From the NCBI RefSeq assembly GCF_015864665.1, contig NZ_JADYWU010000001.1, positions 992,001-1,056,000 on the forward strand: a DNA stretch of 64,000 nt, given 5' to 3'. Position 1 is the stretch's first letter. Every line of letters starts with the position of its first letter. This DNA is from Salinibacterium sp. SWN167 (GTDB lineage: Bacteria > Actinomycetota > Actinomycetes > Actinomycetales > Microbacteriaceae). The translations under genes and the position numbers were made by a program. The notes beneath the pieces were generated by a model. That model searched no databases, was not told the DNA's origin, and saw nothing but the letters and a program-made list of their open reading frames with translations. Below, one piece after another: positions 19,764-19,890 of the stretch.

Positions 19764-19890
19764 GCACTCGCCCCTGTCGAGTGCGCAGTGCTGTCTTGCA
19801 CTCGCCCCCATCGAGTGCGCAGTGCCGTCTTGCACTCGCCCCTGTCGAGTGCTAATTTTGACCTTGGCACTCGCGTAGTTCGAGTGCCAA
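19764..19890 (+). repeat. Array of four CIRCE-type operators upstream of groEL
   Basis: Four inverted repeats GCACTC-N9-GAGTGC occur at 19764-19784, 19798-19818, 19832-19852 and 19864-19890; the last is perfect over nine bases (TTGGCACTC-N9-GAGTGCCAA). The GCACTC half-sites begin every 34, 34 and 35 bp. The CIRCE consensus bound by the repressor HrcA is TTAGCACTC-N9-GAGTGCTAA. The third unit ends in GAGTGCTAA. The first three units are nearly identical over their whole 34 bp, so they arose by tandem duplication. The fourth overlaps the likely promoter, 43 nt before the start codon. Confidence 0.93.

Follow-up and report, generated by a model that had tools for sequence, protein, structure and literature searches.

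The locus under study lies in a stretch of 64,000 nucleotides from the genome of Salinibacterium sp. SWN167 (hereafter the window, numbered from its first letter), between the gene of a LytR_C domain protein and groEL. Its features, with offsets given from groEL, are as follows.

19140–19736, plus strand: gene of a LytR_C domain protein, the upstream neighbour (PF13399, E = 3.1e-12)
19764–19784, no strand: CIRCE unit 1 (extra, leftmost), exact palindrome, –169 from groEL
19785–19797, no strand: 13-bp linker after unit 1, GCAGTGCTGTCTT
19798–19818, no strand: CIRCE unit 2 (extra), exact palindrome, –135 from groEL
19819–19831, no strand: 13-bp linker after unit 2, GCAGTGCCGTCTT
19830–19835, plus strand: –35-like hexamer TTGCAC, which shares bases with the left arm of unit 3; present in all 26 genus genomes and in 76 of the 77 named loci
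19832–19852, no strand: CIRCE unit 3 (distal core), exact palindrome, no mismatch in 26 of 26 genus genomes
19853–19858, plus strand: –10-like hexamer TAATTT, 17 bp after TTGCAC; [TC]A...T in all 26 genus genomes and in 50 of the 77 named loci
19867–19887, no strand: CIRCE unit 4 (proximal core), near the putative transcription start, exact, no mismatch in 26 of 26 genus genomes
19933–21561, plus strand: groEL (PF00118, E = 2.1e-74)

The gene of a DUF3263 protein (18825–19136, plus strand) lies upstream together with the LytR_C gene (lytR_C), the stop codon of which is 27 bp from unit 1. At the other side, 45 bp separate the end of unit 4 from the groEL ATG at 19933. The nearest named record to this groEL is that of Salinibacterium sp. 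PAMC 21357, with 99% identity. Directly after groEL there is a WXG100-family gene on the minus strand (21738–22028; PF06013, E = 1.2e-17). Further along the window, GAC/GAT-rich tandem repeats of 3, 9, 24 and 42 bp occupy 30505–30852, by eye an acidic repeat tract.

The palindrome GCACTC-N9-GAGTGC occurs in four exact copies starting at 19764, 19798, 19832 and 19867, giving spacings of 34, 34 and 35 bp. This matches the earlier description of four repeats every 34–35 bp, and the array is followed by groEL (PF00118), in agreement with the assignment of these repeats as CIRCE elements before that gene. Within the 64-kb window, the exact palindrome is limited to 19764–19784, 19798–19818, 19832–19852 and 19867–19887. 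A loose setting yielded 55 window matches in total, close to the shuffle expectation (mean 52.84), and the remaining 51 of the 55 listed have two or three mismatches. The whole 3.0-Mb genome holds five exact palindromes, namely the four array units and one before groES, a gene named by eye. Tandem Repeats Finder assigned 19756–19852 a period of 34, 2.9 copies and a score of 173, the top of its 21 window rows. Taken as 35-nt copies, the second and third share 86% and 94% identity with the first, and the proposal that the array arose by tandem copying of one unit is supported. Unit 4 carries the longest perfect palindrome of the array, TTGGCACTC-N9-GAGTGCCAA, and is indeed the most perfect of the four. 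The four-CIRCE array is real and not a product of chance. A dispersed repeat or mobile element was also considered and rejected, the exact palindrome being found at five places in the genome.

On its sequence features, the array belongs to the HrcA/CIRCE regulon: it consists of four exact copies of the palindrome, it is positioned before groEL, and the genome encodes HrcA. The cited passages give the CIRCE consensus of the Bacillus subtilis type as TTAGCACTC-N9-GAGTGCTAA (PMC7464140, PMC545781, PMC1676014). One hrcA match was found in the genome (PF01628, E = 2.5e-53), followed by a gene that resembles dnaJ by eye. In the genus, hrcA is present in all 27 genomes. An array lacking its repressor gene, one of the circumstances that would have told against the first-pass annotation, is excluded. 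Outside the array, the groES gene (named by eye; G000:C1:840724-840789, G000 being the present genome) has its own exact CIRCE, again TTGGCACTC-N9-GAGTGCCAA, with a one-mismatch copy 45 bp further on. Having one exact and one one-mismatch site, groES thus differs from groEL in the arrangement of its sites. Another one-mismatch CIRCE with matching outer bases (TTA...CAA) lies at G000:C1:1259543-1259563, just before a minus-strand gene that appears Hsp20-like by eye. A further one-mismatch CIRCE-like site precedes what is probably the real start of hrcA (MVSARGLDVL...) by about 24 bp, and through it hrcA might possibly regulate itself.

Units 3 and 4 correspond to the standard CIRCE pair of the family. 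A tandem pair of exact units, counted irrespective of whether groEL follows, is present in 354 of 398 family genomes, and among 80 named relatives a CIRCE pair was located ahead of groEL in 77. In these 77 loci the two units are spaced by 33 bp (13 loci), 34 bp (26), 35 bp (37) or 36 bp (1), a range that includes the 35 bp between units 3 and 4. Within the genus, groEL was located in 26 of the 27 genomes, and in all 26 the core units are positioned at –101/–102 and –66/–67 from the start codon, without a single mismatch in 624 arm bases. With its four units the present promoter goes beyond the plain two-site form of the family, and the earlier statement that CIRCE elements here exceed the usual two is supported.

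The distal core unit also occupies the 17-bp spacer of the motif TTGCAC-N17-[TC]A...T in 26 of 26 genus genomes. TTGCAC matches TTGACA at three of six bases, and a strict promoter scan found no promoter at the array. Among the 77 named loci, 27 have a sequence other than [TC]A...T at the –10 position, and 34 have CAGAAT there. We infer that TTGCAC and [TC]A...T constitute a –35/–10 pair with the operator in its spacer. Unit 4 had been placed over the likely promoter; instead, the candidate hexamers flank unit 3, and unit 4 would lie approximately at the transcription start. In Mycobacterium tuberculosis, a subset of groEL2 transcripts contains CIRCE elements, according to the cited passage (PMC3207917), which neither proves nor excludes the groEL start proposed here.

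Upstream of the core pair, 9 of the 26 genus genomes possess further units every 34 bp from the distal core unit (–135, –169, –203 and –237). When extra units are counted with up to three arm mismatches, the totals are three units in G005, G023 and G025, four in G000, G001, G008 and G013, five in G011 and six in G014. Perfect arms are found in 13 of the 18 extra units. The other five have one or two mismatches, and four of these five stand at the left end of their array or one place in from it. TTGCAC is kept in 11 of the 18 extra units and GC.... replaces the –10 hexamer in every one. The repeated unit thus comprises the distal operator and its left flank but stops short of the –10 hexamer, and units 1 and 2 are read as tandem copies of the distal unit devoid of a –10 element. 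Promoter activity of the extra units was rejected, as [TC]A...T after a 17-bp spacer occurs in 0 of 18.

In the groEL tree, the nine array genomes together with the two-unit genomes G012 and G006 form one clade of 11 (support 100/100). All 34-bp arrays of the genus fall inside this clade, in which the total copy number ranges from 2 to 6. The duplication had been called recent. Its tandem nature stands, but it is not simply recent, for the copying dates to the ancestor of the 11-genome clade and was followed by gain, loss and homogenisation. One period upstream of its pair, G006 retains a lone intact right arm, which looks like the remnant of an extra unit. Outside the clade, two units are found in 14 of the remaining 15 genomes of the genus. 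The exception, G016, harbors two further distal-type units at a spacing of 56–57 bp, one of them mismatched, in an array that extends from –214 to –66 relative to groEL, and this expansion is an event separate from the 34-bp arrays. In several two-unit genomes of the genus, a cold-shock-like gene (by eye) and a GC-rich hairpin lie between lytR_C and groEL; no such cold-shock-like gene was seen at this place in the array clade.

Copy number changes between close relatives. G000, with four units, and G012, with two, are sisters (support 100/98), and their flanks agree at 841 of 846 positions on the left side of the array and at 1591 of 1601 on the right. G012 is shorter by 68 bp, exactly two units. 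A loss in G012 is the simpler reading, since G013 (four units) and G011 (five units) are the relatives next in line. A change in copy number between close relatives with flanks more than 99% identical is one feature of a minisatellite; homogenisation within a genome is another, and this was also observed. Across the six genomes that carry at least two extra units, left-edge linkers excluded, linkers differ by a mean of 1.15 bases within a genome (13 pairs) against 2.58 when same-register linkers of different genomes are compared (31 pairs), with a permutation p of 0.00025. Homogenisation is incomplete in G000, as its left-edge linker differs from its two inner linkers. The array is therefore best read as a slippage-prone minisatellite that appears to undergo concerted evolution. 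The variation among close relatives that the first-pass annotation had sought is present, and it fits tuning or neutrality alike.

These features lead us to propose a putative model, which we hold to be the more probable account, albeit with some reserve: a minisatellite of HrcA operators would extend the repressor-covered region upstream of an ordinary HrcA-controlled groEL promoter. With unit 3 occupied, HrcA would overlie the spacer of the –35/–10 pair, and with unit 4 occupied it would cover the start, which would keep RNA polymerase off until heat inactivates HrcA. In a model described in the cited passage, HrcA is active only with GroE and loses its activity when unfolded proteins occupy GroE (PMC1676014). 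Units 1 and 2 would be additional HrcA operators derived from the distal unit by tandem copying, the number of which would shift by slippage or unequal recombination while the units are homogenised. Being upstream of the –35 hexamer, they would act only by raising the local occupancy of HrcA or by blocking polymerase arriving from lytR_C. In Campylobacter jejuni, the HrcA footprint on single CIRCE-like sites is reported in the cited passage as about 30–40 bp (PMC7464140). Given that such a footprint is about as long as one 34-bp unit, HrcA dimers on units 1–4 would lie end to end from shortly past lytR_C to the start of groEL.

The individual parts of this model differ in strength. Binding of HrcA to the array, units 1 and 2 included, is expected with considerable confidence. 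A measurable effect of units 1 and 2 on expression is plausible, yet we would somewhat sooner bet against it, and any repression they add is probably modest; two members of the clade, G012 and G006, get by with two units. The sites with their conservation, the phylogeny of the arrays, the differing copy number of the sisters and the hrcA gene are established here, whereas we infer the promoter, the binding of HrcA to units 1 and 2 and any stronger repression. Cooperation through helical phase, which had been suggested from a spacing of just over three helical turns, is unlikely. As 34 bp corresponds to 3.24 turns of 10.5 bp, successive units would be rotated by about 85° against each other; moreover, the core spacing itself varies from 33 to 36 bp in the 77 named loci, and that in G016 is 56–57 bp.

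The operator model has to be weighed against a neutral minisatellite, in which palindromic 34-bp repeats slip as the DNA replicates, homogenise and decay at the left edge while groEL remains unaffected, with or without contact to HrcA. Except for function, this account overlaps ours, and we consider it a serious but rather unlikely alternative. Deviations from the consensus in 24 genomes amount to 7 of 216 bases in the extra arms, 13 of 162 in the N9 spacers, 36 of 234 in the linkers and 0 of 576 in the core arms. The compared sequences are related and not independent, so the p values are rough: 8e-6 for extra arms against linkers, 0.06 for arms against N9 and 0.0001 for extra against core arms. 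Counting each change once per genome gave 6 of 108 for arms, 10 of 81 for N9 and 20 of 117 for linkers, with equally rough p values of 0.007 for arms against linkers and 0.12 for arms against N9. Constraint is thus weaker on the extra units than on the core units. That extra arms decay (7 of 216) and core arms do not is as neutrality would have it, as are copy numbers of 2 to 6 in one clade, the loss of two units in G012 and the position of four of the five mismatched extra units at or next to the left edge. Selection on the extra units, sought by comparing arms, N9 spacers and linkers, gave no significant difference between arms and N9, which again suits neutrality; arms and linkers do differ. 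Against it, the arms vary less than the linkers, extra units are kept in 9 of the 11 clade members, and no arm mismatch is seen in 13 of the 18. Repeated copying from a constrained core unit can, however, by itself leave arms less variable than linkers, with no selection acting on the extra units.

A second alternative is control at the level of RNA or read-through, with the units forming RNA hairpins where the lytR_C transcript ends and serving as a terminator, an mRNA stabiliser or an HrcA-bound roadblock that shields groEL. Unit 1 starts only 27 bp past the lytR_C stop codon, unit 3 with its TAATTTT tail scores as terminator-like (1 found, 0.3 expected), and the predicted RNA fold has a z score of –2.11, with 4 of 200 shuffles as stable. 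However, units 1 and 2 are without a T tract, and that of unit 3 is its –10-like TAATTTT, a place where most named relatives differ (CAGAAT in 34 of 77). In addition, the lytR_C stop codon is further away in the array genomes G001 and G011. This is a weak rival, which we consider quite improbable, with unit 3 alone scoring, and doing so through its –10-like tail. The least probable alternative is an HrcA sponge, by which the extra units would lower free HrcA and the copy number at groEL would set groES and other targets: since the genome offers few other sites (an exact and a one-mismatch site at groES, and one-mismatch sites at the Hsp20-like gene and the hrcA start), two extra sites make a sizeable share, but an array of only two to four sites on the chromosome would titrate little unless HrcA is very scarce.

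The extended operator array that we favour would add to a widely conserved bacterial regulatory pair, HrcA and CIRCE, which normally uses one or two sites per promoter. Operator and repressor were known before; what is new here is that, within one clade, a fixed promoter can have anything from 2 to 6 operators. Near-identical sisters differing by two units provide a natural series on the effect of extra upstream repressor sites, and the clade allows one to ask if a stress response can be tuned by the slippage of repeats.

Compared with the double CIRCE of actinobacterial groEL, the palindrome, the gene, the two core positions and hrcA are all the same here, whereas the clade adds one to four copies of the distal unit upstream (two in the present genome), in a number that varies between sisters. 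The single CIRCE of groESL and dnaK operons of the Bacillus subtilis type shares the operator sequence and the repressor, but those operons have one site near the start and no array, as against the four-site array here. Promoter variable-number tandem repeats likewise change in copy number and are homogenised within genomes; in the present array, each repeat holds a whole repressor operator. Chaperone promoters with more than one CIRCE are also described outside the actinobacteria in the cited passages, with two sites at dnaK of Lactococcus lactis (mentioned in PMC1676014), at hrcA of Lactobacillus plantarum (PMC3842655) and at dnaK and clpB of Spiroplasma (PMC5138195), against three to six in this clade, and those passages report no change in copy number. 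An extended repressor-covered stretch upstream of a core promoter also has a counterpart in C. jejuni, where HspR binds multiple HAIR sites; repressor and operator differ from those here, and C. jejuni HrcA itself covers one compact site, as described in the cited part of that study (PMC7464140). The open-access PubMed Central texts that were searched yielded no account of three or more tandem CIRCE before groEL.

Long arrays of exact units are rare in wider samples as well. At least three exact tandem units were found in 4 of 398 genomes of the family draw (G000, G001, G011 and G192, as read from the table) and in 1 of 396 in each of the order and phylum draws, the present genome both times; these draws overlap, those of order and phylum contain no other members of the genus, and exact units alone were counted. 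G260 was rejected as a further triple, its two pairs being on different contigs. G192, from another genus of the family, has three exact CIRCE 35 bp apart (G192:C1:400446-400536), of which the first two share their N9, and we read this triple as an independent duplication.
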